Shown here: positions 9,863 to 58,509 of the stretch, one piece after another
Numbering within the stretch: position 1 is the stretch's first letter
Layout of the letters: every line of letters begins with the position of its first letter
From: an alpha proteobacterium U9-1i
GTDB taxonomy: Bacteria > Pseudomonadota > Alphaproteobacteria > Caulobacterales > Aquidulcibacteraceae
DNA: 64,000 nt
NCBI GenBank assembly: GCA_000974665.1
Contig: BBSY01000002.1
Span: 1,054,001-1,118,000, forward strand
Direction of reading: 5' to 3'
Notes under the pieces: generated by a model
Database searches by the model: none
Told to the model about the DNA's origin: nothing
The model's input: only the letters and a program-made list of their open reading frames with translations
Made by a program: the position numbers and the translations under genes

Positions 9863-9864
9863 GC

Positions 9865-37423: not shown

Positions 37424-37468
37424 TGGTGGTGGCGGGTGGACTTGAACCACCTACCTTGGGGTTATGAA
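37424..37468. repeat. Left attachment repeat: 45-bp copy of the tRNA-Met 3' end
   Basis: It is identical over 45 bases to 58433-58477. It covers CCA, acceptor 3' strand, T arm, variable loop and the anticodon loop up to TTCATAA. The remaining 5' tRNA half is absent, so this is the displaced 3' tRNA fragment left after integration. Confidence 0.9.
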
Positions 37469-37638
37469 CTCCGCGGACGATTGGTTTGTGGCGCTACCGC
37501 GGATAACGATCGGCCTACTAAACCCCATGCAAATAGAGCGCAAACCGTAGAATCCGGTAGTTGTCGGTAGGCTGTGGGTGATTGGCTAAATACCGCGATC
37601 GTTGTACCTATGATGTACCTACGAGCTGCAGGGTGCCA

Positions 37639-38901
37639 ATGACCCGGAAGAAACTGACTAAGGCAGTCGTGATGGCACTACCGGCGCCGAGCGAGGGCTT
37701 CGCCGATTATTTTGATGTGGGTCTGCGCGGTTTCCACGTGCGTGTCTTCGCCTCTGGAAAGCGGAGCTACCGGCTCAAGTACACTGCTGGGGGCCGTCAG
37801 CGTGTGGCAACGATTGGGGAGCACGGACCTAGCTGGACAACCGAGCAGGCCCGCACTGAGGCTGAAGACCTGCGGATGGTTGCGGACCGAGGGCGTGATC
37901 CCATCGCCGAACGGATGGCGGCGGCGCACGCGGCGGCTGAGAAGGAGCGGCGCACGATTACGGTTGAGCAGTTGGTAGAAAAGTGGCTTGCGGAGGGGCG
38001 AGCCGCGAACCCATCGAAGCGTGAGAGTTCTTGGAGTACGGACGCACGCAAGCTTCGCCGCCACATCGTTCCTTTGATTGGCCCAATCTCGGTTCAAGTG
38101 CTTACCAAGGGGGATATCGAGAGCGCCCAAGCCCGCATTGTGGCGGGTGATACAAAACTCGATGAAAAGACCAAGCCACGCGGGAGGGCGATCGTACGAG
38201 GCGGACGCGGTGCCGCGCGCGGTGCGGTGATGAGCTTGTCCGCATGTCTGAGTTGGGCGGTAGACCAGGAAATCATCGCCTCAAATCCTGCGATCAGGGT
38301 GCGCAAGGAAAAGCCGCGTCGACGGGAACGGTTTCTCTCTGAACAAGAGGCAGGTCGGTTTCTCGACACGCTCACCGCCATGGAGCGTGAAAAGAAGCTT
38401 AACTCATGTTTTGCAGACATGCTTCGCGTTCTGCTTCTGACGGGCGCGCGAAAGTCGGAAATCCAAGCGCTGCATTGGTCTGAGGTGGATTTGGCGCGTC
38501 TCAATATCGTCCTCCCTCGGGAGCGGTCGAAAACTGGCGAGAAAGTTATTCCGATCAACGCTGCCACCGCCGCAATCCTCACGAAACGGAAGTCGAGGAA
38601 GGATTTCGTTTTTCCATCGCCCTTCGATGCCAAGCGTCCAGCCGAAGGACTTCAAAAAGCGTGGGAGCGCGTTCGCGTGCGCGCAAAGCTCACAGGGGTT
38701 CGCATCCATGATCTGCGCCACAGCTTTGCGTCGTTCGCTGTGGCGAGCGGCGCGAGCCTACCGCTGATCGCGAAGGCGCTCGGACACACTCAGACATCCA
38801 TGACAGAGCGCTACGCGCACCTGGGAGACGACCCAGTCCGAACCTTATCTGAGAGAGTTTCCAAGAGGCTCGTAGGTCTGCGGAGGCAAAGAAAAGTATG
38901 A
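37639..38901 (+). CDS. Tyrosine integrase (P4/DUF4102-like)
   Basis: 420 residues from ATG 37639. The N-terminal arm-binding region (DYFDVGLRGFHVRVFASGKRSY..YTAGGRQRVATIG) resembles DUF4102. A core-binding domain and the catalytic domain follow: TGARKSEI (Arg about 271), HDLRH (His357, Arg360), GHT (His383), MTERYAHLG (Tyr392). P4-type integrases use tRNA 3' ends as attB, which fits the adjacent tRNA-Met repeat. The next gene overlaps by 4 bases. Confidence 0.93.
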   Translation: MTRKKLTKAVVMALPAPSEGFADYFDVGLRGFHVRVFASGKRSYRLKYTAGGRQRVATIGEHGPSWTTEQARTEAEDLRMVADRGRDPIAERMAAAHAAAEKERRTITVEQLVEKWLAEGRAANPSKRESSWSTDARKLRRHIVPLIGPISVQVLTKGDIESAQARIVAGDTKLDEKTKPRGRAIVRGGRGAARGAVMSLSACLSWAVDQEIIASNPAIRVRKEKPRRRERFLSEQEAGRFLDTLTAMEREKKLNSCFADMLRVLLLTGARKSEIQALHWSEVDLARLNIVLPRERSKTGEKVIPINAATAAILTKRKSRKDFVFPSPFDAKRPAEGLQKAWERVRVRAKLTGVRIHDLRHSFASFAVASGASLPLIAKALGHTQTSMTERYAHLGDDPVRTLSERVSKRLVGLRRQRKV

Positions 38902-39725
38902 CCAAGGCGAAGCAGAATATCGTAGAGCCGGCGCCGTTTTGCATCGGCGCGACAACAAAGGACATCCTGGCAGTCCCCACGATCGCACGTGTGGCGAAGA
39001 TGATCGAGGACTCCGGCTTTTCAAGGAGCGCGGCCCGTGCGCTTGCTCGAAGAATACTCCGAAAACCCGGTCGGGAGGTGGCGTCCAACGACAGCTATTG
39101 GTCAACGCTCTCGAAGCACATTGACGAGACGATGGATCGAGATGAGCAGGGTAATCCGTCCGGCTGGGGTTTGTTTTGGATGCATGTTCAACTTAGCGAG
39201 GGAGGTGCTCGCTATTTCCTCGCGCAGCGTGGCGTTCCCCTTGAACCTGGGAGGTACAAGAAAGATTCCTCCGGTGGTTGGCAGAAGGAAAGCGAGCACG
39301 CTTGGCGCCTGGAGCTTCGAGGCGTCTGTAACTCATCTGACGAGCACCTTGCCGCGGAGTTAGTGAGCGCTGCACTATGGATACGCCACTTGATCAAGAA
39401 CCGGGATTACGGTGCCGCACTGCATCTCTGCTTCCACTTGGCGGAGCTGAACTATGAACTGACCCTCAGACTCTCCGGCATCAGCGATCTCGTGGATATT
39501 GGATTGGCTGTTTCGGAAAAGCGTGCGTTCGATGATGAGTTAGACCCGGCTGCGCGCAAGCGCGAGCAGTTTTGGGAAGCGTACGAACTCCAGTACGTCG
39601 GTGAACGCAAAGAGCAACCTCTGCGGCCTACACCGTTCGCCAGAGAACATTGGCGCAGGTTTGGTTTTCCCTCTTCGGGCTCGGCTCAGAAATTTCTTTC
39701 TCGGCGCTTGAGCGGGCTGCGATAG
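38898..39725 (+). CDS. Hypothetical island protein
   Basis: The 275-residue protein overlaps the integrase stop (ATGA), so it is co-translated with it. It begins TKAKQNIVEPAPFCIGATTK and has no membrane segment or recognised motif. The central part (HAWRLELRGVCNSSDEHLAAELVSAALWIRHLIKNRDYGAALHLCFHLAELNYEL) is helical and appears well folded. The same position after integrase is often taken by small host-takeover or directionality proteins, but no function can be given. Confidence 0.6.
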   Translation: MTKAKQNIVEPAPFCIGATTKDILAVPTIARVAKMIEDSGFSRSAARALARRILRKPGREVASNDSYWSTLSKHIDETMDRDEQGNPSGWGLFWMHVQLSEGGARYFLAQRGVPLEPGRYKKDSSGGWQKESEHAWRLELRGVCNSSDEHLAAELVSAALWIRHLIKNRDYGAALHLCFHLAELNYELTLRLSGISDLVDIGLAVSEKRAFDDELDPAARKREQFWEAYELQYVGERKEQPLRPTPFAREHWRRFGFPSSGSAQKFLSRRLSGLR

Positions 39726-39815
39726 CCGATTTAGACACCCCGGTGCGTCTAAAGTGATACCGTGCGATTTCTCCCGTAGGCGCGAGCTACGCGCAGCGTT
39801 GGTGGAGATGGTCGG

Positions 39816-40157
39816 TTGTCGAATGACACTTTTCGGACCACGGAAGAGGTCGTCGCCTGGCTTGGTGCGAAGGGTTTGAGGGTTCGGTCTCAGACGCTAG
39901 TCAACTGGCGGCACATCGGCGGCGGGCCCCTTTTTCATCGGTTCGGACATCGCGTTGTGTACGCAGAGGCGAACCTTGCGCAGTGGCTAAGCGAGCGATT
40001 GGGCGAGCCGCATACCAGCACATCCGACTGTGCAGCTTCGAAGCATCAATCAAACGCGCTGCGTCGCAACTCCGCCAAACGCAGACCGGCGTCCGTCGTT
40101 GGGAAAACCAGCAGGGCGGCGTCCGGAGAGAGAGCTACTGTTGGGACCCGGCCATAG
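39816..40157 (+). CDS. Excisionase-like helix-turn-helix protein
   Basis: It starts at a TTG after GGTGGAGATGG. The first 60 of 113 residues match the MerR-like HTH_17/excisionase pattern (TFRTTEEVVAWLGAKGLRVRSQTLVNWRHIGGGPLFHRFGHRVVYAEANLAQWLSERL). The Ser/Arg-rich tail may be non-functional. Such AlpA/Xis-type proteins direct integrase toward excision and regulate it. The position two genes after the integrase fits. Confidence 0.65.
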   Translation: MSNDTFRTTEEVVAWLGAKGLRVRSQTLVNWRHIGGGPLFHRFGHRVVYAEANLAQWLSERLGEPHTSTSDCAASKHQSNALRRNSAKRRPASVVGKTSRAASGERATVGTRP

Positions 40158-40379
40158 CTCAAGCGCAGTCCGAAGGGAGAAAGCGCGGCCGGCGGCGGGG
40201 GCGATACCGTCGCAAGTAGTCACCCAGGCTCAACGCTACGCCCGGCCGTTGAGCGCCCTCATGCGGGGCCGGCTCCGAGGAGCGGAAGTATGCATGGGCG
40301 GCGCGGGACCGCTCCGACTTTCGTCGGGGACGGTCGTCCCGCGCCCCCTTCAAAGCCTCACCAAGGATCGGTGGACAAG

Positions 40380-40667
40380 ATGACGTCTCGGAAACTCCCA
40401 GCCCTAACCCACCAAGAGCGTTCCGACGCCATCGCATCAGCGGCGCCAGAGCACATCGAAGCAATCCGACGAAAGTCCAGAAGCTACGCGGTTTTCGGGG
40501 GACGCCGGTTCGAAGCGGAAGACCTTTTTCAAACCGCGTTGCTGAACGCCTATGAGGGCCGGCCAGCGTGGCAACCAGGCCGATCATTTGTTGACTACTG
40601 CGATGAAGTCATGGCGAGGCGAGTTCGCTTTATCTGCGCAACACCGGAGCGGAAGACCGCGTCATGA
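40380..40667 (+). CDS. Small mobile-element protein with sigma-70 region 2-like pattern
   Basis: 95 residues. FEAEDLFQTALLNAYEGRPAWQPGRSFVDYCDEVMARRVRF resembles the region 2 helix pair of ECF factors (AEDLxQxxLLxA), but region 4 is missing. Similar truncated sigma-like proteins occur in integrated elements. The ATG of the next gene overlaps its stop. Confidence 0.5.
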   Translation: MTSRKLPALTHQERSDAIASAAPEHIEAIRRKSRSYAVFGGRRFEAEDLFQTALLNAYEGRPAWQPGRSFVDYCDEVMARRVRFICATPERKTAS

Positions 40668-41296
40668 CTATGCAAGCCATTGCCGAGTGTGATGCGCTAG
40701 CGCCCCTCTCGCGGATGCCGCGGCTAGAGCTTTCCTGCGCGTCGGATGGGTCGTTGACGGCGACCTTAGAGGCGGGTAGCCCCGAGGAATTCGCGTCGTT
40801 GTTTGGCGCTTCGGGGCGAGAGTTCGCAGACCAAGCGGTACACGACCTTTTGAACGTCGCGCTGACGGCCGCACCGAAACCGGGTGCCGTGAACACTTCA
40901 CCGGTGAATGCCATGCTGCAGGCCGTGCGAGCGGTTCGACCGGTAGACGAGCTTGAGGCAATGCTCGCTGTGCAGATGGCCGCGTTCCACCACGTTACAT
41001 TGTGTTGTCTTCGAAGGTCGCAGCAATCGACGGCGACGATGGAAGGCAGGACGCTCAACCTAAGCCAAGCCAATAAGTGCGCTCGCAGCTTCATCGCCTT
41101 GCTAGACATGCTGAATCGACATCGCGGTAAGTGCACAACCCAGCGCGTGATCGTGGAGAACGTCACCGTCGAGGCCGGCGGCCAGGCGGTGGTCGGCGCC
41201 GTGGGGGGAGGGGCGCCGACCAATCCCGGAGGTTCAACCCCATGCGACGGCAAAGACCGATCAAGATCGCAGCAGACGCGGCGCCGCGCTGCCTAG
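40664..41296 (+). CDS. Hypothetical mobile-element protein
   Basis: 210 residues, overlapping the upstream gene by 4 bases. Most of it is a helical region (LLNVALTAAPKPGAVNTSPVNAMLQAVRAVRPVDELEAMLAVQMAAFHHV). A beta-rich tail VIVENVTVEAGGQAVVGAVGG is followed by a disordered end. The tail form is recurrent in alphaproteobacterial prophage-like islands, upstream of HGG-repeat proteins as here. Function unknown. Confidence 0.6.
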   Translation: MTMQAIAECDALAPLSRMPRLELSCASDGSLTATLEAGSPEEFASLFGASGREFADQAVHDLLNVALTAAPKPGAVNTSPVNAMLQAVRAVRPVDELEAMLAVQMAAFHHVTLCCLRRSQQSTATMEGRTLNLSQANKCARSFIALLDMLNRHRGKCTTQRVIVENVTVEAGGQAVVGAVGGGAPTNPGGSTPCDGKDRSRSQQTRRRAA

Positions 41297-41505
41297 CGCG
41301 GACAAGGTCAGGCGGCGCTTGCATGCAGGCTGCGGTCGCTGGCAAGAAGCGGTGCCGCATGCATGGGGGAGCAACAGGCAGCGGCGCACCGCTTGGCAAC
41401 AAGAACCGATACATTCATGGCCACTACGGCGCTTCAGCGCGCGCCCTCGGGCGCTTGGTTCGGGACATGCTGGACACCGCCGCAGAGCTAACCGACCGCG
41501 ACTGA
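41242..41505 (+). CDS. HGG-motif mobile-element protein
   Basis: 87 residues from ATG 41242, overlapping the upstream gene in another frame. APRCLARTRSGGACMQAAVAGKKRCRMHGGATGSGAPLGNKNRYIHGHYG contains spaced cysteines and the MHGGxxGSG...GNxNxxxHGxY signature of a small family common in phages and islands (a small zinc-binding fold is possible). Last gene before the terminator at 41682. Confidence 0.7.
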   Translation: MRRQRPIKIAADAAPRCLARTRSGGACMQAAVAGKKRCRMHGGATGSGAPLGNKNRYIHGHYGASARALGRLVRDMLDTAAELTDRD

Positions 41506-41862
41506 AAACCGGTCAGGCCCGTACCGGTGCGATGTCCGCAACGGGGCATTTTCGGAAGTCGGCGTCAGTTCGCGCGAAGCCGATAACGGACGCTGGCGGA
41601 GACCTTTGAAGGTAACTTCGTGAGCGCCGCCGTCCTCTAGTCGGCGAGAAGGACCGAGGGCCGGCAGCCCCTCAAGGCTGAGCCGCGGCCGAACTAACGG
41701 CCGCGGCCAGTCTTTTTTACTTTTCATCAACACCTCTGAAGAAAATTAACCAGCGCGCGCGTGGGCAACCGCGCGCGCCATCAACGCATCGAAGGAGAGC
41801 CCCGTGACCAACTCGACCCGCCGTCCGAGACGTCTTCGTTCACCTTTTCAGGATCAGCCAGC
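41506..41862. other. Intergenic stretch of the island
   Basis: About 360 bp with no convincing gene. It holds a strong intrinsic terminator (41682-41718) for the integrase-side genes and presumably the promoter of the gene at 41863. Confidence 0.5.
41682..41718 (+). terminator. Intrinsic terminator of the integrase-side gene set
   Basis: GCCGCGGCCG (41682-41691), 6-base loop, CGGCCGCGGC (41698-41707), then CAGTCTTTTTTAC. This is a 10-bp GC stem with a T-run, about 180 bases after the last gene. Confidence 0.85.
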
Positions 41863-42618
41863 ATGCGCTTTCCCAACCTTCTCGCATTTCTAAGCCTCAC
41901 CTTCACGAACCAACCGGCGCTCACGCCGGAGATCACCACTTACGACATCGTTCGCCGCCACGATTACGGCGACCGCAACCAAGCACTCATCGATGAGTGG
42001 AACGCCATGCGGGCGGTGGCTAACGCCGCCGCCGACTTCTACCGTCGCATGGACAAGCCATCCGCCAAGACGCCGCGCGCCGGCGATCCGAGGCAGTCTC
42101 AATTCTACGACGAGCCCTTCATCAAGGCCGCCGCGTTCTTCCGGCGCGCAGGTAGCGACATCGCGACCGGGGAGGCCGATCCGGCGCGGCTCTCCGTTAT
42201 CAGCGGCGACGCCAGTCTCTGGCTTCGCGTGCTGCACGATCAGGAGCGCAGCCGCTGGGACAGCGAGCGGAAGCTAATGTTCGCACAGGCGGCGGAAGCG
42301 CTTCGCATCATCACCGACGAACCCCGCGCCGTCCGCAGCAGCTGCTATTGGGACCCGTTGGAGATCGAGGGCTATACGACGGTCGATAAGCGCGACCACG
42401 TCATCGTCGAAGTGCGCGTCTTCAATCCCAACGATACCGACGCGCCAGTCGCCGCTCTCTTGCTGCAATACTTGCTGACCGGGCTCGCCCGGATTGTGTG
42501 GCCGCCGCGCAAATCCATCCCAGCACGCAAGAGCACCAAGATCAGGTTCAAGCTACGGCGCGAAGCGAATGGCGCGATAGACGTGAAGTTCGCCCTTTCA
42601 CGCCAATTCCACGGCTAG
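41863..42618 (+). CDS. Hypothetical island protein
   Basis: 251 residues from ATG 41863 (a longer frame starts at 41761). It begins MRFPNLLAFLSLTFTNQPAL, then soluble helical sequence (NQALIDEWNAMRAVANAAADFYRRMD, FFRRAGSDIATGEADPARLSV). The C-terminal half could be a beta sandwich (DHVIVEVRVFNPNDTDAPVAALLLQYLLTG, STKIRFKLRREANGAIDVKFALSRQFHG). No family recognised. Confidence 0.55.
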   Translation: MRFPNLLAFLSLTFTNQPALTPEITTYDIVRRHDYGDRNQALIDEWNAMRAVANAAADFYRRMDKPSAKTPRAGDPRQSQFYDEPFIKAAAFFRRAGSDIATGEADPARLSVISGDASLWLRVLHDQERSRWDSERKLMFAQAAEALRIITDEPRAVRSSCYWDPLEIEGYTTVDKRDHVIVEVRVFNPNDTDAPVAALLLQYLLTGLARIVWPPRKSIPARKSTKIRFKLRREANGAIDVKFALSRQFHG

Positions 42619-42652
42619 ATCGGCGAGCCGCGCGAGATCGCAGAATGCGGTC

Positions 42653-44168
42653 TCAGCGGCAGCTCAGTTGAATCGCCTCGGCGGACGGTCCATTAGAATA
42701 GGCATAGAGCTCGCAGAGCGAATGCTGGTTTCCGTCGGGATGCTCGCGAATGTATCGGGCGAGATCGCGCGCGAGCGCTGCGTCGTCGACATTCGATCCG
42801 GCCGGAACGACTGTTCCTGCGAGCAACGCGATGCTCGGACCTTCGTGGTTGGGGCTCGCAAAGGGCGAGGTCTCGATGCCGCGGCTGAGCACGAATATCC
42901 GCGCGCGTCGATCACCTCGCTCGGCCTGTGCGGCGAGGACACCAGCCAGCGTCCACCCACGCTGCAACGCGCGCGAATGCTCGGTGTTCGGTCCGCCTCG
43001 CGACGTCGCGCTCCCGACGGCTATCAAGAAATCTGCTTCACGGTAGACGCCGCAGTTTCCAACGGGGAGCAGTGATCCGGTCGGTCTCGCCGTATTCCCA
43101 ACGGAAGCCCGAGCACGCGATGTCTACGGCTCGGATAGAGATGCTCGCAGCCGCTGGTGGTCCGTCCCCCTCGCTACCCGCTGCACCGCCATTGCGCGTG
43201 AGTAGTATCGGAAGTAGCACGAGTGCGAGTGCTGCGCCGATCCAGACCCAGCGTGGCGGCGCGTGCAGCGATTGAGCTTTGGCCACCACCCATCGCACCC
43301 CGGCGATCAGCCCGAACAGGACGACCGCCGCAACCGTCGCGATTAGAACAACGTCTCCGACCACGAGCAATGTGGCGAACAGGGGGCCCGCCAATCCCGC
43401 GAGCCACAGACAGACCCCGATCAAACCGACGACGATGAGCACAATCGCAAGTGCCGCCGCTATGCTCAATGCGACGGGTATGATGGTCTTAGCGCTTTGT
43501 TGCGCCGCGCGAACGGCGGCTTGGGCGATACGCACCCGATGGATAACGAAGGCGTAGGCAAGCGAGAGAAGAACGACGAACGAAGCCTGCCGTCCGGCGA
43601 TCTCGACGAGCTCGTGCTGCGGAAGCGCTGCGCCATCGATCCACGGCACGAGAAAGAGAGAGCCGCCGACCAGCAGCAGCATTGAGAAGAAATACGCGGG
43701 ACCACCCCCGTCGCTGTGGCGGTTACGTGCATCGTGAGCGCTGGCGAACGCCAGCAGAAAACTCAGAAGACCCCACGTTACGAGAACCGAGAAATAGGCG
43801 CTTACTGCCCCGTTCCGAAAAGCGGCGTGCATCAACGCGCCGATTATCGAGGCATCGCTTACATCGAGTCCCGCGTCGCCAGATCGCAGCACGACCCACA
43901 ACGCATGCGTTCCGAGCGGACCTATGGTGCCGAACGCCAACGCGGCGATCTCGACGCGCGGATCGACTTCGCTTTCCTTGGAGTTGATCGCATAGTCCGA
44001 CAGGAAAACGGCGAACAGCGCGAGCAGAAGGTCGAAGGACAGCAGCGCTAGCCAGCCCCAGATCGCGCCACGGAGCCCGAGGTCTGACAGCATGACCCCC
44101 GCCGGGGCAACGACGCCGCCGACCAAGAGCAGCGCCAGCGCCGCGTAGAAAACTCTATCACCAATCAT
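42653..44168 (-). pseudogene. Polytopic membrane protein gene split by a frameshift
   Basis: The frame from ATG 44168 gives a protein with about eight membrane helices (VFYAALALLLVGGVVAPAGV, LLSFDLLLALFAVFLSDYAI, AALAIVLIVVGLIGVCLWLA, WVWIGAALALVLLPILL). It ends abnormally near 43038. The next frame continues directly with GNCGVYREADFLIAVGSATS and RARIFVLSRGIE to 42653. That looks like a soluble, OmpA-like or periplasmic C-domain with several cysteines. One single-base indel near 43080 would join the two parts. It is either a mutated gene, a sequencing error, or two overlapping genes. Confidence 0.55.
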
Positions 44169-45808: not shown

Positions 45809-47476
<1,668 letters not shown>

Positions 47477-47794
47477 TTAGGCAGCCTTGCGGCTCGTTGA
47501 GCTGTCGCGCTCAACGACGCCCAGGATGTCGGATTCCTTCATGATCAGGAGATCCTCGCTGTCGATTTTGACCTCGGTCCCCGACCATTTGCCGAACAGC
47601 ACACGTTCGCCGGGCTTCACGTCGAGCGGCGTCAGCTTGCCGTCCTCGTCGCGATGACCAGGGCCGACAGCGACCACTTCACCTTCCTGCGGCTTTTCCT
47701 TCGCCGTGTCGGGAATGATGATGCCGCCCTTGGTCTTTTCTTCCTCCTCAACGCGGCGCACCAGAACGCGATCGCCAAGGGGTCTGAACTGCAT
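47477..47794 (-). CDS. groES: Co-chaperonin GroES
   Basis: 105 residues from ATG 47794: [77 protein letters not shown]. It has an extended C-terminal tail ([10 protein letters not shown]) beyond the usual ~95 residues. It caps GroEL. No CIRCE element was seen upstream, so HrcA control is unlikely; sigma-32 or another heat-shock control is probable but not proven. Confidence 0.95.
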
Positions 47795-48220
47795 GAGCCT
47801 TGATCTCCTCTTCGTAAGTGCAAACGGAAACAGGGCCAGCCGCCTGGGCTTCTTGAATGGAAGCAACATCTGCCTGCCTCTCCTGTCCAAGACAGTTCGG
47901 CAGCCGCCGGGCAAATTAGCATCCGTCGCCCGCGACTGCTAAATTGTCGGGGCACGATTTGGGCGCGTCTAGATCGGCTTCAAGAGGGCCCTACAGAAAA
48001 TTTTTCGACGCCGTGGTGGCTATTTTCGAGGGTGTAACGGCCTCGCTTGCGGCGCCCGTCGCCGTGTCTTTAACCCCGAAAAAATTCGCGCGAAGGGTGT
48101 TGAAGGACAAAATTGCCCTCCTAGCTTTTTTCCGCCGGGCGCCGGAGAGGGCTTGGCCACGGGCGCCGGCGACGTCCGGCGTTCCTCGTGACCCATGTTG
48201 CTTTGCAAGAGGATATGGAG
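47795..48220. other. Divergent region between groES and hsp20
   Basis: About 426 bp without a gene. No inverted GCACTC (CIRCE) repeat is visible. Near the hsp20 start, TTGCT (48198-48202) lies 5 bases before the Shine-Dalgarno AGAGGA (48208-48213), as in ROSE-type RNA thermometers. TTGAAGGAC...CCTCCTAG around 48100-48123 could be a heat-shock sigma promoter, weakly. Confidence 0.45.
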
Positions 48221-48700
48221 ATGAGGACCTACGATTTTTCACCGTATTACCGGTCATCCGTTGGCTTTGACCGGATGCTCAATCTTTTGGGCGCGCCGCA
48301 GCGCCCGGAAGCTGACGAATCCTGGCCGCCTTATGACATCGAGCGTCAGGATGAGGATCGCTACTCGATCACCATGGCGGTGGCGGGCTTTGACCAAGAC
48401 GAAATCTCGATCATGGCCGAAGCCAACGCTCTCCTGGTCGAGGGGCGCAGAAGCGAGGACGACAGCGGACGCAATTTCCTGCACCGTGGCATCGCCCAGC
48501 GCGCCTTCCGCCGTCAGTTCGACCTGGCCGACTTCGTCAAAGTGACGGGCGCATCTTTGGAGCACGGTCTCCTGCGCATCGAACTTGAGCGCGAGATACC
48601 CGAGGCGATGAAGCCGCGCCGGATCGAGATCGGCACAAGCAAGGCGCGCGGGATCAAGGCGGCGCGCGAAGGCGACGCCCCGGTCGAGCGCGCGGCCTAA
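48221..48700 (+). CDS. Hsp20/IbpA-type small heat shock protein
   Basis: 159 residues from ATG 48221. MRTYDFSPYYRSSVGFDRML is the class A (IbpA/HspA) start. The alpha-crystallin domain (WPPYDIERQDEDRYSITMAVAGFDQDEISI to HGLLRIELEREIPEAMKPRRIEI) contains the conserved L-I-E-L strand. It holds unfolding proteins in the cytosol. ROSE-like sequence before the start suggests thermosensor control. The second Hsp20 gene follows 23 bases later. Confidence 0.93.
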   Translation: MRTYDFSPYYRSSVGFDRMLNLLGAPQRPEADESWPPYDIERQDEDRYSITMAVAGFDQDEISIMAEANALLVEGRRSEDDSGRNFLHRGIAQRAFRRQFDLADFVKVTGASLEHGLLRIELEREIPEAMKPRRIEIGTSKARGIKAAREGDAPVERAA

Positions 48701-48723: not shown

Positions 48724-49215
48724 ATGAGAGACCTGATCCCGTGGGGCCGCTCGCGCGCGCCTGCGCGCCAAAGCGAGCCTCATCATGATGCGGCTTTGAG
48801 CCCGTTCTTGAGCTTGCGCCGTGAGATGGACCGCGTGTTCGACGACGCCTTCCGAGGTTTCGGCCTTTCGGCCTTCGGCCCGGGCGCCTTCAACTGGCCT
48901 CAAGTCGAGGTCGCCGACCGCGACAAAGAGGTGCGCGTCACCGCTGAACTTCCAGGGCTTGACGAAAAGGATGTGGAATTGCGCGTTGAAGACAACGTGC
49001 TCATCCTTCGCGGTGAGAAGCGCACCGAGTTCGACGACGCGGAGCGTCAATACAGCGAGCGCAGTTACGGACGCTTCGAGCGTCGCCTCGCTTTGCCGGC
49101 GGAAGTCGATGAAGAACGGGCGAGCGCCACGTTCCGCAATGGCGTTTTGACCGTCACGTTGCCGAAGACGGAGCGCGCACGCCAACAGACCAAGCGCATT
49201 CCTATCTCGCACTAA
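48724..49215 (+). CDS. Hsp20/alpha-crystallin family chaperone, class distinct from IbpA
   Basis: 163 residues, strong AAAGGAGG site. MRDLIPWGRSR, then PFLSLRREMDRVFDDAFRGF, then the alpha-crystallin domain (FNWPQVEVADRDKEVRVTAELPGLDEKDVELRVEDNVLILRGEK, ATFRNGVLTVTLPKTE) and the C-terminal IPI-type motif KRIPIS. This resembles Hsp20 proteins carried on transmissible stress-tolerance islands. It is co-transcribed with the preceding hsp20. Confidence 0.93.
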   Translation: MRDLIPWGRSRAPARQSEPHHDAALSPFLSLRREMDRVFDDAFRGFGLSAFGPGAFNWPQVEVADRDKEVRVTAELPGLDEKDVELRVEDNVLILRGEKRTEFDDAERQYSERSYGRFERRLALPAEVDEERASATFRNGVLTVTLPKTERARQQTKRIPISH

Positions 49216-50181: not shown

Positions 50182-50224
50182 GCTGATGCCAGGACTCGCT
50201 CTCTTCATCGCTTGGAATCAAGTC

Positions 50225-50482: not shown

Positions 50483-51580
50483 CTACGCAGCGGATGCCGG
50501 TTCGAGACTAGTCTCGGTTGTGACACGATCTCGGCCGGCCCGCTTGGATTGGTAAAGGCAAGCGTCCGCGCGGCTGATGAAGCTGGAGGCGCTTTCTTTA
50601 GGAGCGCGGCGCGCAACACCCAGCGAGATGGTCACTCGGCCAAGGATTTCACCGGTCGACTTCCTCGAAAGCGTTTTCGCCTTAATCGTTGCCCGGATGA
50701 GTTCGGCGACTTTGGCTGCAGTCGCGAGTTCCGTTCGCGGCATGATCAGGGCGAATTCCTCGCCGCCGTATCGCGCTGCCAGAAAATCTCCTCCCGCCTG
50801 CGCGTGTAGAACGCTGGCAACGTAGCGTATCACCTGGTCGCCGATCTGATGGCCCCATGTGTCGTTGACGCGCTTGAAGCTGTCGATATCGCACATCAGC
50901 AGGCAAAGCCCGGCGTGAGTGGATTCCGCTTCAGCGAGCCGCGCGCGCAGGACTTCGTCAAAGTGCTTGCGATTGGCAAGGCCAGTCAAACCATCGGTCA
51001 GGGCTTCAACTCGCACGTTCTGCAAGGCGGTTTGTAGGGTCTCTACTTGGCGTGACGACGCTTCCATGCGTTGTTCGAGGCTGCGATTGTAGACAACCAT
51101 CTCACGCGTCGTGGCGGCAAGGCGCGCCAAGATTGTCCTGACGGCGGCAGGATCGGCGCCGCTTTCCATGTCTTGAGCCGCAGCGTGCAATTCACCTGCA
51201 TAATTTCCAGCTTGCGCGCCGGCACCACGTAAGCTTGTGATCACGTCGGTGAGTTGTCGTGCAATGCTGGCGCTTGCTTCCACCATCTGCGCCGACAGTC
51301 GCGTCTTGGCGAAATAACGCTCAAACAATTCTTCGCTGACACCGTCCGTAAAGGGCTCGCCGCGCAGCAGTCGGGTCTCGATCTCGCGGTTGAGTTCCGG
51401 ATTCGCGCCTGCAAGATAGGACGTCCAAATCTCGTAGTTCGTCGGGCTAGTGGCTGCAGAATGTCGCGCGAGTTCGTCAATAGCGGCGCGCGCCAGCGCC
51501 AGACCCGCTTCACCGCGAAACTGCGTCAACAAATCGACCATTGAAACTGCCCAAGGAATACACGCGAGGCGATTTGCCAT
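50483..51580 (-). CDS. Diguanylate cyclase (GGDEF)
   Basis: 365 residues from ATG 51580 (ATG 51541 is also possible; the frame extends to 51844). The N-terminal helical region (LARAAIDELARHSAATSPTNYEIWTSYLAG to ASIARQLTDVI) is a widespread but unnamed sensory domain. The GGDEF domain has DGLTGLANRKHFDEVL, DIDSFKRVNDTWGHQIGDQVIRYVA, and ARYGGEEFALIMP with an intact active site. The RxxD inhibitory site is absent. It makes c-di-GMP in the cytosol. Confidence 0.88.
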   Translation of the reverse strand: MANRLACIPWAVSMVDLLTQFRGEAGLALARAAIDELARHSAATSPTNYEIWTSYLAGANPELNREIETRLLRGEPFTDGVSEELFERYFAKTRLSAQMVEASASIARQLTDVITSLRGAGAQAGNYAGELHAAAQDMESGADPAAVRTILARLAATTREMVVYNRSLEQRMEASSRQVETLQTALQNVRVEALTDGLTGLANRKHFDEVLRARLAEAESTHAGLCLLMCDIDSFKRVNDTWGHQIGDQVIRYVASVLHAQAGGDFLAARYGGEEFALIMPRTELATAAKVAELIRATIKAKTLSRKSTGEILGRVTISLGVARRAPKESASSFISRADACLYQSKRAGRDRVTTETSLEPASAA

Positions 51581-51686: not shown

Positions 51687-52190
51687 TCAGTTTGAAAATT
51701 TGTCAACGACGACATGCGGATCGAGCCCAAACTGGCGAAGCCGATCAAGATACCGCAAGACGGCCTTATGCCCATGCTCAACAGCGAGCCAGCCGCGGGC
51801 GTCGGCCAGTCCGTACGAGATGCGAACCCGGTCATCGGCGTCAACCGTCAAGTGCCCGGCGCGCGCTAGTTCAGAAGTCTTTCTGCGCACAGTCTCCCGC
51901 GGCAATCCCGTCTTATCGGCGATCACACGGCGCGAAATTGATCCTCTGACTTCTTCCGGCGGTTTGGGACTTTGCATGACCTTTTCCGCACTCTCTGTAT
52001 CGAGCATGAACGATCGCATCGTCGCGTCCGAGACGCAAAGTAGGATCAGCAAGGATTCCAAATCAATATTGGCGTAGAATGTTCGCGCGCAGTGAAGTAG
52101 GTCGAGCAATAGCTCTATTCCCGCGAAATTTATCGGTCGTACGTGCTCGGGGATTTGCGCGGGGCTATTGAGGTCGTGCGGATGATTCAT
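51687..52190 (-). CDS. Winged-helix transcriptional regulator, family uncertain
   Basis: 167 residues. The middle has a helix-turn-helix pattern RRVIADKTGLPRETVRRKTSELARAGHLTVDADDRVRISY, close to MarR/Crp-type wings. The N-terminal half (INFAGIELLLDLLHCARTFYANIDLESLLILLCVSDATMRSF) has no known ligand site. It lies 106 bases upstream of the diguanylate cyclase start on the same strand and may be its partner. Family not identified. Confidence 0.65.
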   Translation of the reverse strand: MNHPHDLNSPAQIPEHVRPINFAGIELLLDLLHCARTFYANIDLESLLILLCVSDATMRSFMLDTESAEKVMQSPKPPEEVRGSISRRVIADKTGLPRETVRRKTSELARAGHLTVDADDRVRISYGLADARGWLAVEHGHKAVLRYLDRLRQFGLDPHVVVDKFSN

Positions 52191-52883: not shown

Positions 52884-53162
52884 GATTCCTCTGAGGACCA
52901 TCCTAGTCCTGCATGATAGCCAGCTGAGAGCTCAGCGTCTCCAATCGGCGAGATCACGCCGCATCGCGGCACTGAGCGCGAATGGCTGAACTGGAGCGAG
53001 CAAGTCACTCGCTGAAATCGGCGTTATGTCTCTCGTTGGCCCATTGCGGCCGTTTGTCGGATGGCGCGGTGCAAGGACGCCTTCGTGGATTGGGAAGTGG
53101 CAACCGAGCACGGAGGGCGGAGCCAGCTCTCGGCCCCGCCCAAGCGCTTGTCGCCCGTATTG

Positions 53163-53969
53163 TCAGTCGTTCGACGGGCGCCACGTGAAACGGATGCCGG
53201 TGGCGTAATCGGGGCTGCCGTCGGATAGTCCGCCCGACGCGTTAACCGAAACGCGAACATTACTCGTAAGCTGTTGGGTCACGAAGACGCCAACTTGAGC
53301 GGGATCGTCGCGGCCGACGATAGCCGCTTCGCGCCAAGACCCGAAGGCGCCGAGTTGTGTGTGCTCACCTGTTCGCATCCACGTGTTGGCTGAGAGCTGC
53401 CAACCATCTTCGCGCTGTACGCCCGCGCGATCGCCGAGGAAGCGCCGCGCAAGTTCGATTGATCCACCACCACCACGCTTGTTGACGCCAACCTCACCGG
53501 CGAGCTGGTAGTCCGTCGCGCCAACACCGAGCCCCGCGTCTTCGTCGCCGGTGGGCAAACGCACGCGCGCCGTTGTTTCAAAGTATGCGTCAGTGCCACC
53601 GACACGGCGGAATGTGCGGCTGACCGACAAGTTGGTGTCGCCAATACCACGCTCCGTACCGCTTCGAATGGGCGTGCCACTGCTGCCGCCGGCGCCGCCG
53701 GTGCCATCGCCGGCGCCGGCATCGACGTCAGCAACGTCAGCTGGCCCGTCGATTTGCAAGTAGGACGTTGATGCACGGAAGGCCCACTTGCCGTTTGTTA
53801 CTCGAACCACAAGCGGGAGCGACACCACTTCCGTGTCGGTTGCGCCACCGTAATCGCCTGACGAAAAATCGATACCGCTGGCGACGCTATACGTCGTCTC
53901 GGCATGTGCGACGCCGACGCTCATCGCCACAGCGGCGGAGGCGAGCAGCACTTTGTAAATTCCCCTCAT
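53163..53969 (-). CDS. Outer-membrane beta-barrel protein
   Basis: 268 residues, signal peptide (KVLLASAAVAMSVGVAHAET). Alternating polar/hydrophobic strands follow (TYSVASGIDFSSGDYGG, WAFRASTSYLQI, YFETTARVRLPTGDEDAGLGVGATDYQLAGEVG, DYATGIRFTWRPSND). This suits a transporter- or autotransporter-like barrel of the MetA-pathway/phenol degradation (DUF) type. It has a Gly/Asp-rich extracellular loop (VDAGAGDGTGGAGGSSGT). It lies just downstream of the acidic repeat protein gene. The exact family is not clear. Confidence 0.7.
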   Translation of the reverse strand: MRGIYKVLLASAAVAMSVGVAHAETTYSVASGIDFSSGDYGGATDTEVVSLPLVVRVTNGKWAFRASTSYLQIDGPADVADVDAGAGDGTGGAGGSSGTPIRSGTERGIGDTNLSVSRTFRRVGGTDAYFETTARVRLPTGDEDAGLGVGATDYQLAGEVGVNKRGGGGSIELARRFLGDRAGVQREDGWQLSANTWMRTGEHTQLGAFGSWREAAIVGRDDPAQVGVFVTQQLTSNVRVSVNASGGLSDGSPDYATGIRFTWRPSND

Positions 53970-54048
53970 ATGGTCCCCCTGAAAAAAGAACGAGCCCGAG
54001 GATTGGTTCCCCGGGCTCGCATGTCACCTCATTTCAACCCTTTGGTTT

Positions 54049-54822
54049 TTAGCCTGGACCACTGTGGCCGCCATGATCGTCGCCAACATCTTCATTGTCG
54101 GTCGCGTCATCAACGCCGCCACCGATGTCTTCGTTGTCGGTCGCATCATCAACGCCGCCGCCGATGTCTTCGTTGTCGGTCGCATCGTCAACGCCGCCGC
54201 CGATGTCTTCATTGTCGGTCGCATCGTCAACGCCGCCACCGATGTCTTCATTGTCGGTCGCGTCATCAACGCCGCCGCCGATGTCTTCGTTGTCGGTCGC
54301 ATCATCGACACCACCGCCAATATCTTCATCGGTGTCTGGCGCATCATCTGCGCCGTGACCGCCGTGGTCGTCGTTCATGTCGTGGTCGGCCCCGTCGTCG
54401 CTATCGTCGTTCGCGCCGCCGTGATCGTCGTTGGCATCATGATCGGGGCCGTCGTCGGCGCCATGACCGCCACTGCCATGGTCGTCATTCGCATCGTGGC
54501 CGGGGCCATCGTCAGCGCCATGGCCGCCATTGCCGCGATCGTCGTTGGCGTCGTGGCCCGGGCTATCGTCAGCGCCACGACCCCGTCCACTATTGTCGTC
54601 ATTGCTGTTGTCATCGTTGCCGTCGCGTTGACCGCGACCGCGTTGATGATCGACGCTGTTGTCGTCCACCGTCCCGTCGCCGCGCAGTTTCACGCCGTTG
54701 ACGATGTCATCCGAACTCTGCGCCGCCGCGATATCGGCAAGCGAGATATTCAGCGCCATGCCGCCGGCCGAAAGGCCGATCACGTGCGCCAGAACGGCGA
54801 GAACAAAATTCTTGTGCTTCAT
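54049..54822 (-). CDS. Secreted acidic repeat protein (13-residue tandem repeats)
   Basis: 257 residues. Signal-like N-terminus (VLAVLAHVIGLSAGGMALNI). Then an extremely Asp/Gly/His-rich region with NDDHGGHGADDGPGHDA-type units and six tandem copies of DNEDIGGGVDDAT near the C-terminus. It has no globular core and is likely to bind Ca2+ or other cations. It sits between the barrel protein and the anti-sigma gene. The neighbouring S8 protease has a similar acidic Gly/Asp/His-rich linker, so the proteins may work together. Confidence 0.75.
   Translation of the reverse strand: MKHKNFVLAVLAHVIGLSAGGMALNISLADIAAAQSSDDIVNGVKLRGDGTVDDNSVDHQRGRGQRDGNDDNSNDDNSGRGRGADDSPGHDANDDRGNGGHGADDGPGHDANDDHGSGGHGADDGPDHDANDDHGGANDDSDDGADHDMNDDHGGHGADDAPDTDEDIGGGVDDATDNEDIGGGVDDATDNEDIGGGVDDATDNEDIGGGVDDATDNEDIGGGVDDATDNEDIGGGVDDATDNEDVGDDHGGHSGPG
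54091..54324 (-). repeat. Six 39-bp tandem repeats
   Basis: Six units of 39 bases start at 54091, 54130, 54169, 54208, 54247 and 54286. They differ mostly at third positions (catt/cgtt, gtc/atc) and encode DNEDIGGGVDDAT. Copy number should vary between strains. Confidence 0.9.
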
Positions 54823-54904
54823 AGCATTCCCCTAGCAGGCGAACCCTGACAGATTGCGCGAACCAAGCGCGCGGACTGGTTCGAAATACTGCCAGTGCCG
54901 AAAT

Positions 54905-55615
54905 TTATTCCCGGGGCCGTGCGTCTATTTCAGCGGCGCGCCAATGATTGCGCAGCAGCGCATCTTCCTGCGCCTCATCGACCACGGAGCCGCCGCCCAA
55001 GGCGATCAGCGCAGCGTCAACAGCGCCCTGAACGCTCCCGGCCAAATGATAGGCATTGTTGTTCGCGTGAGGCGCCGCCGCCGCAACCACCACATTCCAG
55101 TTCGCTTGGTCGCGACAAGCAAGGGCATCCGTCGTCTCCTGCGTCGTGGATAAACGGAATTGGCGGCAAAACGCGCCGGACTCGGTCTGGACGGTCAGAG
55201 CGAGCGTTACCCGCCCTCCGGCGACTTCCCGCGATTCTCCGCTGCGTACAGCTTCCAGCGCGCCGCCAATGTCTCCGTTCAACTGGGTCAGCGAAAAACG
55301 TGGCGATCTGTCCACACTGATCGAGCCTAGGACTACGCCAAGCAAGCAAGCTGCCGCCAACGGCGCCGCGCGACGCAGGAGATGCAGAGACCCAGGCATC
55401 CGAATGGACTCAGCGCTAAGAATGCGCTGCGATAAGGCGTGGTCACTTGCTGAAGCGGACGCGGGCACGGCCCGGCGCAGCAATTCGTCGGCCTTCTTGA
55501 AAATACGCAATCGCATAGTTCCGCCCGCGCTCGCATCGAGGGCCTTGGCCAGCTCCGCGCGCGCGGCTTCGTCGCTCTCTCGATCGATGAAGGCGCCGAT
55601 CTTCTCGTCGTTCAT
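54905..55615 (-). CDS. Membrane anti-sigma factor
   Basis: 236 residues. The N-terminus MNDEKIGAFIDRESDEAARAELAKAL fits the cytosolic anti-sigma domain. One membrane helix lies around 82-102 (PLAAACLLGVVLGSISVD) and a periplasmic domain has a cysteine pair (GAFCRQFRLSTTQETTDALACRDQ). The stop/start overlap with the upstream sigma gene (ATGA) is typical. It should hold the ECF sigma at the membrane until a periplasmic signal or proteolysis frees it. Confidence 0.85.
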   Translation of the reverse strand: MNDEKIGAFIDRESDEAARAELAKALDASAGGTMRLRIFKKADELLRRAVPASASASDHALSQRILSAESIRMPGSLHLLRRAAPLAAACLLGVVLGSISVDRSPRFSLTQLNGDIGGALEAVRSGESREVAGGRVTLALTVQTESGAFCRQFRLSTTQETTDALACRDQANWNVVVAAAAPHANNNAYHLAGSVQGAVDAALIALGGGSVVDEAQEDALLRNHWRAAEIDARPRE

Positions 55616-56139
55616 TGTGGCGTCTCCCGAATTTCGCTCAGAGGGTCATCGACGCGCACGATGGCGGCGATCGCAGCGCGTCCTCTGGCCAATCTACTCA
55701 TGATCGTTCCGATCGGAACGTCGAGCGTTTCCGCCGCGTCCCTGTATGAAAATCCTTCAAGCACCACCAAAGTCAGCACGGCGCGCTGCTCCTCGGGTAG
55801 GCCATGGAAGACCTTGGCCGTCCGGCGCAATTCGTCGCGCGCCTCTATACCCACGCGCAGATCCTCGAAGGGCGCATGGGCGTCGATGAGCTCAACGTGT
55901 CTGCGCTTGGCCATGTCCTTGCGCAGGTCGAGCCAAGCGTTCTGCATGATCTTGAACAACCAGCTGTCGAGCCGGCGGGTCTTGTCGTACGCGCCAGCGC
56001 TGCGGATCGCCTTTTCGATCGCGGTTTGCAACAGATCGTCGGCCGCATCTGCCGAGCCCGACAGGGCCACGGCAAAGCGGCGCAACCTCGGCAGCAAGGC
56101 CACGAGGTCTTTCCTAAATTCCCTCTCGGCGGGCGTCAT
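55612..56139 (-). CDS. ECF-type RNA polymerase sigma factor
   Basis: 175 residues. Region 2: LVALLPRLRRFAVALSGSADAADDLLQTAIEKAIRSAGAYDKTRRLDSWLFKIMQNAWLDLRKDM. Region 4: GLPEEQRAVLTLVVLEGFSYRDAAETLDVPIGTIMSRLARGRAAI. It is distinct from the EcfG at 29241. It is co-transcribed with its anti-sigma factor and divergent from an S8 protease gene. A GGGA-N4-TCCC palindrome (56167-56178) in the divergent region may be part of the control site. Confidence 0.92.
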   Translation of the reverse strand: MTPAEREFRKDLVALLPRLRRFAVALSGSADAADDLLQTAIEKAIRSAGAYDKTRRLDSWLFKIMQNAWLDLRKDMAKRRHVELIDAHAPFEDLRVGIEARDELRRTAKVFHGLPEEQRAVLTLVVLEGFSYRDAAETLDVPIGTIMSRLARGRAAIAAIVRVDDPLSEIRETPQ

Positions 56140-56232
56140 GACTAAGTAGCAATACCTAAAAGCCGCGGGATTATTCCCACGGGGAGGCGCGGGGTGCTAC
56201 GTTTTGCACCCGGTCAGTCTTTGGAGGCGCCA

Positions 56233-57825
56233 ATGCGGGCGCTGTTTCGTGCGGTCACCTTGTGTGCGTCATTGCTTGCGGTGAGCGCGGGCGGCGATGC
56301 CTTGGCGAGCGCCACTCCCGGTGATGACGAAATCGCTGAGCCCGAAGATGTGGCGGTTGACGATCCCATCGACGTTGAGGCGCCTGACGCGGCAGAAATC
56401 GACACACCAGAAATCGACACGCCAGAGGTAGATGCCCCGGAGGTAGATGCCCCGGAGGTAGATGTCGACGATGCGGCGGCGCCCGACACGCCCGAAGTCG
56501 AAGCGCCGGCCGATGATAGTTCGGGCACTGGTTCGGGTGGCGATGGGGATCTGTTGGATTCTGCTGAAGACAATGGCGGCGGTTCTGACGGTGGTGACGA
56601 TAGCGGCGGCTCAGGCCACGGCAGCGGCCACGACGACGGCGGCGGCGACGATCGAGGGTCGCGGTCTGGTTCGCATGGCGGCGGAGACCACGGCTCGAAC
56701 GCTGAGTCGAGCGGTTCGGGAAATTCAGGCCACGGCTCGTCTGGAGGTTCTGAGAACGCTTCAGAGCGCGGCGCGGAAGTTGTACAGCAGCACTTAAACG
56801 GCCCGATCGAGCTCGCTCGCGACGATTTGGGTCGAGAATACGTTGCAGGCGAAGTGCTTATGGCAGGCGTTGCCGCCGACGTCATACGCGCGACCGAGGC
56901 GGGCTATCGCATCATTTCGGAGCAGGCCCTCGGGCCCGACAATCGCGTCCTGGCGCGCCTGCTGGTTCCGGAAACGATAAGCGTGACCCGTGCGATCGAC
57001 GAATTGCGCGTAATCGCACCGGCGGCGCTCGTGACCATCAACACAGCCTACCGCACCACGCAGGCGACACGTTTTGCCGTGGCCTCCGCGCCGGGCGCTG
57101 GGCGGCGGCTTGGGCAGGGCCTTCTGGGCGTTATTGATACCGGAGCAGATCCCGCTGCACTGGCGACCACCGAGGCCATGGTCGCATCGCGCGGCTTTGG
57201 CTCGGCCGGTTATCTGGCGCGCGAGCACGGCTCTGCTGTGGCTTCAATCGCAACCAGGCTGGGCGTCCGGGTCAGCGTGGCCGATGTCTTCGGTCCCAGT
57301 ACGACCGGTGCGCCCATCGCTTCAGCCAGCGCGATTGCGGCGGCGTTGCAGTGGATGGTGGATGCGGGCGTGCCGGTCATCAATATCAGCATCGAGGGAC
57401 CACAGAACCAAGTGCTTGAGCGTCTCATCGGCGAGGCGGCGCGGAACGGACACGTCATTGTCGCGGCCGCCGGCAACGGAGGGCCGCTTGCGGGGCCTGC
57501 CTTTCCTGGCGCCTATGAGGGAGTTCTGGCGATAACAGCCGTTGACCGAACGGGACATCCCTATCTACGAGCCAATCGCGGAGATTATATTGATTTCGCA
57601 GCGCTGGGCGTCGACGTTCCGGTTCGCGTGCGCGAGGGATACGCCACTGTATCGGGAACCTCGTTCGCGTCGCCCATGGTCGCTGCTCAAATTGCGGCGC
57701 GCTTTCATCGTCCATCAGCAACCGAAGCAGCTCGGGTCATTGCCGACCTGCGCCAGAGCGTGCTCGATCGCGGCCGACCAGGACGCGACCCGGTTTATGG
57801 CTGGGGCGAAGTGCGTCCCGATTGA
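56233..57825 (+). CDS. Secreted S8 (subtilisin-like) serine peptidase with acidic linker
   Basis: 530 residues from ATG 56233. Signal peptide (LFRAVTLCASLLAVSAGGDALA). A 160-residue disordered linker has EIDTPEVDAPEVD units, then Gly/Ser/Asp/His-rich runs. The S8 domain has LLGVIDTGAD (Asp), LAREHGSAVASI (His), VAAAGNGG (Asn) and GTSFASPMVAAQIA (Ser), so the triad is complete. It faces the divergent ECF sigma/anti-sigma pair and may be either its target gene or the protease that cuts the anti-sigma. The long linker resembles the composition of the acidic repeat protein. Confidence 0.9.
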   Translation: MRALFRAVTLCASLLAVSAGGDALASATPGDDEIAEPEDVAVDDPIDVEAPDAAEIDTPEIDTPEVDAPEVDAPEVDVDDAAAPDTPEVEAPADDSSGTGSGGDGDLLDSAEDNGGGSDGGDDSGGSGHGSGHDDGGGDDRGSRSGSHGGGDHGSNAESSGSGNSGHGSSGGSENASERGAEVVQQHLNGPIELARDDLGREYVAGEVLMAGVAADVIRATEAGYRIISEQALGPDNRVLARLLVPETISVTRAIDELRVIAPAALVTINTAYRTTQATRFAVASAPGAGRRLGQGLLGVIDTGADPAALATTEAMVASRGFGSAGYLAREHGSAVASIATRLGVRVSVADVFGPSTTGAPIASASAIAAALQWMVDAGVPVINISIEGPQNQVLERLIGEAARNGHVIVAAAGNGGPLAGPAFPGAYEGVLAITAVDRTGHPYLRANRGDYIDFAALGVDVPVRVREGYATVSGTSFASPMVAAQIAARFHRPSATEAARVIADLRQSVLDRGRPGRDPVYGWGEVRPD

Positions 57826-58432
57826 GTTTCTTGACGATGAAGACGGTCAGGCCCACCAAGCCCCTCCCAAGGGGCCCAACAGGGTAGCGAATACGCGCCG
57901 AACATGACGGGCACTGACCTTTCGCTACTACCGCAATTGTCGGTAGTTATTCCGCCACCCGCAAACGTGGTGGTCGGGATAGCAAGTCTGCGGCTATCTG
58001 ATCGAGGTAGTGCGATTCGCGATCACCGACCCATACCATCGTTGGGATGTTTGAGAGACGGCGGCGCGCGGCTCTTTCGTCCGGACAGCACCGGAATGCG
58101 GACGCTGGCAGATGATGGCGCAACGGCCGTGATCGGCGATCGTGAGCCGAATTGACGGGCAGGCTGCCAGCGGCCGCATTGGAGCGCGCCGGCCACTCGA
58201 AAAAAAAGTTACGATCGGCGCGCGACTGGCCCTCTCGAGGCGCTTGATTTTGGAGACGCCTGTGTGAGGTTCACACGAGCCGAGCGGCGGGAGTGCAGGC
58301 AATGGAATCTGGACTAGATCTCGACGCTAGCGCTCAGTTCGGCGTTGGCCCGTCCTGTCCCTATGGCGGACCTACGACACAGCGCTGACAGCGGTACGGA
58401 TGGTGCGAGACCAAGAAAATCGAATAAAATCT
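57826..58432. other. Gene-poor end of the island
   Basis: The 607 bp before the tRNA contain no convincing gene. They hold CTACCG-N7-CGGTAG (57928-57946) around a TTGTCGGTAG (57937-57946) that also occurs near the left end (37561-37570). These could be recombinase arm sites; this is a guess. Confidence 0.45.
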
Positions 58433-58509
58433 TGGTGGTGGCGGGTGGACTTGAACCACCTACCTTGGGGTTATGAATCCCACGCTCTAACCAGATGAGC
58501 TACGCCACC
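58433..58509 (-). tRNA. tRNA-Met (CAT)
   Basis: The 77-base gene reads on the minus strand from 58509 (GGTGGCG acceptor) to an encoded CCA (58435-58433). Acceptor CGCCACC, T arm GGTGGTTCAAGTCCACC, anticodon loop TTCATAA. Pair 31-39 is A-C, not a Watson-Crick pair. Elongator Met is likeliest; a tRNA-Ile with modified C34 cannot be excluded. The 3' 45 bases are duplicated at 37424 as an attachment site. Confidence 0.88.

Follow-up and report, generated by a model that had tools for sequence, protein, structure and literature searches.

What occupies the 21 kb between two exact copies of the 3′ half of a tRNA-Met gene in the alphaproteobacterium U9-1i, and how did it come to lie there? The locus lies in a 64-kb window, the whole stretch of DNA that we analyzed (contig BBSY01000002.1, positions 1,054,001 to 1,118,000; all positions below are coordinates in this window), and the source genome, G000, comprises 4.05 Mb in five contigs and is 100% complete. 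We are largely confident that it is a 21.0-kb integrative island, inserted into tRNA-Met by way of an integrase and carrying a heat-shock cargo. tRNA islands are common, and GroESL is usually regarded as a core gene set. The type of insertion here is ordinary, and the unusual part is the cargo, with its predicted RNA thermometer. We regard the heat-shock module as acquired, and what is new is an uncommon cargo in a known kind of tRNA island.

The direct repeat is identical over 45 bp, and the identity ends at both edges and cannot be extended by a single base (Table 1). It spans the anticodon loop to the encoded CCA of tRNA-Met, the single tRNA that ARAGORN found in the window. One copy is thus the 3′ part of an intact tRNA gene and the other has no 5′ half, as the original prediction had claimed and as we could confirm to the base. 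At up to three mismatches, the 45-mer occurs twice in the window and twice in the whole genome, with no third copy, and it did not occur in 100 dinucleotide-preserving shuffles. An uninterrupted tyrosine integrase adjoins the outer repeat. Its start had been placed 171 bp inside the island, and we found 170 bp between the repeat and the ATG, at the head of a protein with Phage_integrase and Arm-DNA-bind_3 domains; the closest relative found is 84% identical and likewise sits beside a tRNA-Met 3′ half. The expected parts of a classical tyrosine-recombinase insertion were present, as had been proposed, and the same architecture is repeated in relatives. The length between the repeats agrees with the ∼21 kb first proposed for a region whose cargo had been left undescribed.

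In the mechanism that we propose, the integrase would recombine the 45-bp core on the island with the identical 45 bp of the tRNA-Met 3′ half. Because the island would supply its own copy of the 3′ half, the tRNA would be rebuilt at one end, leaving an orphan 3′ half at the other. The integrase end would form a recombination module (integrase, partner gene, excisionase-like gene, and sigma-like gene), and the remainder would be cargo centered on groES-groEL facing a ROSE-controlled hsp20 pair. The RNA thermometer would keep the hsp20 pair off at low temperature, and the likely benefit would be more folding capacity under heat or protein stress. Judged from its sequence, the island is probably excisable; from the same evidence we infer transfer, thermometer activity, and stress tolerance. 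No relaxase, type IV secretion, or conjugation gene was found among the 24 island ORFs (open reading frames) tested against Pfam; the island thus does not qualify as an integrative and conjugative element, and any transfer would need help.

The same 45 bp are used throughout the genus. In 30 genus genomes, G000 included, the 45-mer matched 32 times in 22 genomes, 31 times exactly and once with three mismatches. Twenty-one matches run on into the tRNA 5′ half and 11 are partial copies, 10 of them exact. Each of the exact partial copies leaves the tRNA sequence within ∼8 bases of the same point in the anticodon loop, and at nine of them an integrase-like gene starts within ∼310 bp of the repeat. 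Seven of the nine integrases are homologs of the island integrase (G000, G010, G009, G044, and three in G008). The other two, in G020 and G024, are divergent (L097 7590-8789 and L114 12136-13620), with no Pfam match at 1e-3, a PHROG integrase match, and 49% mutual identity; the G020 copy is apparently cut short. The three-mismatch partial copy, in G001, has no adjoining integrase. Partial copies that recur together with integrases mark the site as a genus-wide integration hotspot. Also in favor of insertion here, the 3′ side of tRNA-Met varies among most genomes compared.

In the integrase tree, the enzymes of G000, G010, and one G008 locus grouped together (100/98), followed by those of G009 and G043 (100/99), and the G044 enzyme and the other two from G008 formed a separate clade (97/97) on the same 45 bp. 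With three integrase lineages at the same 45-bp site in one tRNA, the genus offers a natural experiment on site choice. We examined 27 of 30 related integrase loci for a tRNA-3′-like motif ∼200-300 bp upstream and found one at 18 (the 45-mer in five, others in 13) and none at nine; the G043 integrase, one of these nine, adjoins tRNA-like sequence by eye. The DNA that follows the partial copies is of several types, alike in G000, G010, and G008 (C4:143799) and alike again in G008 (C4:112362) and G006. In G008, three partial copies and a single full tRNA are spread over two contigs: the two C4 partial copies are 31.4 kb apart, and the C6 partial copy lies 50.8 kb from the full tRNA. A 72-77-bp sequence just outside the C4:143799 copy recurs beside the full tRNA in G001, G006, and G011 (87-93% identity), as it should if it forms the right end of an element which elsewhere abuts the tRNA. 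Between the C4 copies lie a helicase and a DUF7665/JAB/ThiF-like cluster, and on the outer side of the C6 copy lie type I restriction genes (L099, L100); this DNA is likely defense cargo. G020, a single contig, has a partial copy and an intact tRNA in the same orientation, 211 kb apart (C1:482411 and 693469), an interval that may reflect a rearrangement, stacked elements, or one very large island.

The heat-shock genes form two units that face each other, accessory groES-groEL on one strand and the hsp20 pair on the other. The predicted ROSE element runs into the first hsp20 start and scored 47.8 bits against the gathering score of 45 for Rfam RF00435. Such elements were found in nine of 200 order genomes (eight scored above the cut-off), and the 16 other genus members listed had none, in a search whose stricter filters may lose weak matches. 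We examined 11 ROSE stretches from seven genomes besides G000 (the weak match in G194 was left out), and an hsp20 match was present at 10. ROSE-hsp20 facing groESL also occurs in G161, G097, and G166, three genomes of one genus in another family, with GroELs 74% identical to the island protein; the divergent layout is therefore shared with the island, but the genes are not recent copies. In the 15-20 kb examined around the module in these three genomes (L223, L225, and L230), there was no tRNA and no integrase match. Downstream of the hsp20 pair lies a rare cargo gene, which on the strength of an N-terminal motif may be sugar-isomerase-like. It was found in three of the 200 order genomes, G000 included and one of them weak; 72,556 plasmid records and the viral contigs searched gave no match.

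Table 1. Coordinates of the attachment repeats, tRNA-Met, and predicted features of the island in the 64-kb window
Feature	Position	Strand	Evidence
Outer attachment repeat: tRNA-Met 3′ half, exact, without 5′ half	37424-37468	+	sequence search
P4-type tyrosine integrase, 420 aa	37639-38901	+	Pfam PF00589, PF13356; PHROG 1
Integrase-partner gene, 275 aa, no assigned function	38898-39725	+	start overlaps integrase stop (ATGA)
Excisionase-like helix-turn-helix protein	39816-40157	+	HTH_17 below cut-off; PHROG 66 "excisionase and transcriptional regulator" E 4e-5
Sigma-70 region-2-like protein	40290-40667	+	Pfam PF04542 E 1.3e-4, below cut-off
Conserved island protein	40664-41296	+	homolog near tRNA-borne G043 integrase, 58% over 133 aa
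HGGxSTG-domain protein	41131-41505	+	NCBIfam NF041373; homolog near same G043 integrase
Second, short tyrosine recombinase, 210 aa	44405-45037	+	Pfam PF00589
Accessory GroEL	45809-47437	-	PF00118, TIGR02348
Accessory GroES	47477-47794	-	PF00166, read on longer ORF 47477-47914
CIRCE-like inverted repeat upstream of groES	47916-47942		3 mismatches to consensus (weak)
ROSE RNA thermometer (predicted)	48135-48227	+	Rfam RF00435
Hsp20 no. 1	48221-48700	+	PF00011, read on longer ORF 48188-48700
Hsp20 no. 2	48724-49215	+	PF00011
Rare cargo gene, 295 aa	49294-50181	+	no Pfam match
Diguanylate cyclase (GGDEF)	50483-51541	-	PF00990
Crp-like winged-helix protein	51687-52190	-	PF13545 E 3e-5, below cut-off
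Asp/Gly-rich protein, 39-bp tandem repeats, putatively secreted (by eye)	54049-54822	-	no Pfam match
Putative anti-sigma factor	54905-55615	-	no Pfam match; role assigned by position
ECF (extracytoplasmic function) sigma factor	55612-56139	-	PF08281/PF04542
Subtilisin-like serine protease, acidic N-terminal region	56194-57825	+	PF00082
Inner attachment repeat: tRNA-Met 3′ half	58433-58477	+	sequence search
Intact tRNA-Met (CAT), rebuilt at island border	58433-58509	-	ARAGORN, Rfam RF00005

The island GroEL is distinct from the second groEL product of the genome (C2:1744536; 78% identity) and closest to the second GroEL copy of a congener, G018 (88%). In a tree of 14 GroELs, the island and G018 proteins formed one clade (100/100) apart from 12 housekeeping GroELs. 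Other GroELs in 385 class genomes, a set that did not include G018, were 73-78% identical to the island protein among the matches listed, and plasmid GroELs reached up to 76%, below the 88% of G018. In G018 (L146 8868-12718, G018:C2), 0.6 kb separates groES from a different tRNA with a CAT anticodon. This gap holds a likely integrase remnant, in the form of a 41-aa integrase-like match (39% identity, E 3e-4), and a 49% homolog of the rare cargo gene adjoins the accessory groEL. A CIRCE-like repeat with two to three mismatches was found at 10 of 12 housekeeping groESL loci and none at the G018 accessory copy. The original prediction had named, as an outcome that would count against it, the same 21 kb in a relative that has no integrase; no relative examined carries the 21 kb, and what G018 has beside its other tRNA is a small portion of the cargo, with only the likely integrase remnant there.

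At the integrase end, the excisionase-like gene that had been predicted to follow the integrase was recovered as a candidate from weak matches, though as the third gene and not the second. Its protein has a homolog in the G010 island (57%), where the sigma-like protein also has one. A prophage or satellite reading was rejected, as the 10 ORFs of the integrase half compared with PHROGs gave nothing structural except a weak small-terminase match (E 0.005). The PHROG comparison covered the integrase half, with matches to integrases, excisionase-like, sigma-like, and unknown-function families, and the cargo half was run against Pfam. Relatives of the integrase were absent from viral contigs, in a search reaching close relatives only, and fell below 60% identity in phage records.

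Several observations weigh against an inserted heat-shock island. GC content marks no border (island 61.5%, left 63.1%, right 62.2%), so that of the composition change predicted at both ends only the tetranucleotide part held: the mean distance was 0.249 inside and 0.192 outside (sd 0.024), sharp at the left border and gradual at the right, with the outside part of the same window as the reference, which favors the contrast found. No empty attB (unoccupied attachment site) was found between G000's own flanks in searches of 41 and 61 genomes with the right and left flanks and in a comparison of 20 flanks, that of G000 among them. The G000 left flank has no gene in common with the other 19 flanks compared (tblastn matches with <50% query coverage and above E 1e-20 dropped), so we infer the pre-insertion state. 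At all 12 of the other full-tRNA loci compared, as on the G009 tRNA contig, an AsnC-family gene stands on the 5′ side of tRNA-Met; that of G000 is at 16184-16681, 41.7 kb from tRNA-Met. The second recombinase, with 74-77% identical DNA in five relatives, sits inside the island, and in G006 an exact partial copy has no adjoining integrase. The partner protein and the rare cargo protein are without known function, and their structure models are both of low confidence (mean pLDDT 59 and 36, respectively). The ROSE score is just 2.8 bits above the cut-off, and one ROSE stretch, in G054 C24, has groESL but no hsp20 match. Lastly, in a wider GroEL tree with 15 further sequences (10 from the class and five from the order) and four genus housekeeping GroELs of the first tree omitted, the island/G018 pair was kept (100/100) but fell with the genus housekeeping copies and two order sequences (99/98). 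This placement does not point to an origin outside the order, and the module is nevertheless separate from the housekeeping copies; the island GroESL may be an old duplicate within the order that became mobile.

The displaced AsnC gene shows a rearrangement outside the island, so the left flank need not be the original neighbor. None of the relatives compared has this flank next to tRNA-Met. On the other side, the bases upstream of the G000 tRNA-Met are retained up to about 58550, beyond which the neighbor is a GT2/GtrA gene. A single simple inversion is insufficient for the moved AsnC gene, since the orientation of other conserved genes (28-32 kb) with respect to the tRNA is unchanged. We also considered G041 and G021 as an empty/occupied pair; they share the tRNA neighborhood and differ by ∼3.5 kb beside the tRNA, but there is no 3′-half copy at the far end, and the pair was set aside.

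The strongest alternative, which we consider possible though short of probable, is a composite in which the integrase module (∼37.4-45.1 kb) and the chaperone, sigma-factor, and protease cargo (45.1-58.4 kb) arrived separately and later shared the repeats. The second tyrosine recombinase is placed mid-island (44.4-45.0 kb), as such an origin would suggest, and has relatives elsewhere in the genus; elsewhere in G043, G023, and G018 there are partial DNA matches to an outer-membrane protein, the sigma factor, and the subtilase of the distal cargo; and the G010 island stretches examined hold the same integrase module and none of the G000 cargo. Ordinary cargo exchange, however, would also give a common module with differing cargo, and there is no internal copy of the 45-bp repeat. 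Somewhat less probable, and on balance unlikely, is a fixed relic that entered by the integrase and lost excision, its cargo being kept by selection or drift. The rearranged chromosome beside the tRNA is consistent with such a history, but the integrase ORF is uninterrupted over 420 aa, not one of the 45 bp differs between the repeats, and the island has an excisionase-like gene.

We hold it very improbable that the 45-58 kb part is ancestral chromosome trapped between the tRNA and the attachment copy of another element. The distance of the AsnC-family neighbor implies that segments have moved, and an old duplication within the order may have given rise to the island GroEL; against this, a single further GroEL of those compared belongs to the accessory clade, only three of 200 order genomes have the rare cargo gene (one of them weakly), and tetranucleotide distance is raised across the 45-58 kb stretch. 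A chance match or a dispersed repeat, the latter named by the original prediction itself as a refutation, might be suggested by the 32 occurrences in the genus but can be dismissed almost entirely: 21 of those belong to the tRNA gene, island ends account for most of the partial copies, nine of the 10 exact ones have an integrase-like gene, and the shuffles gave none.

P4-type tRNA islands insert into the tRNA 3′ half and have a border integrase, direct repeats, and several elements per tRNA (tandem accretion). The island here resembles them in its 3′-half insertion, border integrase, direct repeats, and several elements on one tRNA. It differs in that the rebuilt tRNA and the integrase are at opposite ends, and in its partner gene, which was found only with this integrase clade (three of 60 family genomes including G000, each time after a tRNA-Met integrase).

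Among islands with related cargo, the nearest counterpart in function is the transmissible locus of stress tolerance (tLST), also called the locus of heat resistance (LHR). PMC8290217 gives its core genes as dna-hsp20-clpG and describes them in beta- and gammaproteobacteria. According to PMC7685784, the site of the locus in Pseudomonas aeruginosa clone C is the 3′ end of tRNA-Gly, a GGDEF-EAL gene occurs in one variant of the locus, and sHsp20GI of tLST is produced from 20 to 42 °C. The tLST/LHR is, like the island here, a protein-quality-control island with a small heat-shock protein, and tLST has many foreign counterparts of core genes; the GGDEF gene of the island recalls the GGDEF-EAL variant. 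In contrast to tLST, there was no ClpG, FtsH, DegP, thioredoxin, or Kef among the island Pfam matches, the island chaperonin is GroESL, and hsp20 stands behind a predicted ROSE element. With hsp20 present but the dna-hsp20-clpG core missing (no Clp ATPase among the Pfam matches), the island is not a member of tLST/LHR.

A parallel for the module itself comes from Mesorhizobium loti, for which PMC3989490 reports class A hsp genes preceded by ROSE, a groESL with a CIRCE element in front of it, and a groEL that is strongly induced by heat. The mll2387/mlr2394 module resembles ours in combining ROSE-hsp with groEL at nearby locus numbers, which suggest that the genes are adjacent (PMC3989490). Unlike chromosomal alphaproteobacterial ROSE-hsp20/groESL modules, the module here is inside an integrase-bounded island. 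Among the papers listed in searches on groESL or chaperonins and genomic islands, none describes a groESL island in its title or abstract opening.

A second GroESL and hsp20 genes behind a predicted thermometer thus stand in an integrase-bounded block, and a related GroESL stands by a different CAT tRNA in a congener. From this we tentatively propose, at rather less than even confidence, a class of mobile heat-shock islands in this bacterial group that carry an accessory groESL accompanied by the rare cargo gene, sometimes with ROSE-hsp20, and move between CAT-anticodon tRNAs by means of tyrosine recombinases. If this is true, a host would gain a temperature-gated folding system in one step, from an alphaproteobacterial counterpart of tLST with different genes and its own RNA thermometer. 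If the system is active, it would show heat tolerance moving together with a temperature switch of its own, in an island that is not part of the known tLST family.

Toward the rebuilt tRNA, the Asp/Gly-rich repeat protein adjoins the ECF sigma factor and the subtilase, and G043 and G023 have partial DNA matches to neighboring genes of the cluster. A defense role for the subtilase was considered; defense models gave weak IetS-like matches only, which we did not take as function. Near the tRNA end of the island, a ∼100-bp repeat (58133-58232) forms arrays in relatives. It was rejected as an integron attC site, as its outer boxes depart from the attC consensus. In G023, 40 matches to it scored, and among the matches listed 27 are on one strand within 151 kb (G023:C1:3633760-3784669), in a region where most genes are small. 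Far to the left of the island, at 9001-10000, GC content falls to 56.4% with positive GC skew, in a part of the window (8958-9960) where the gene caller found no gene.

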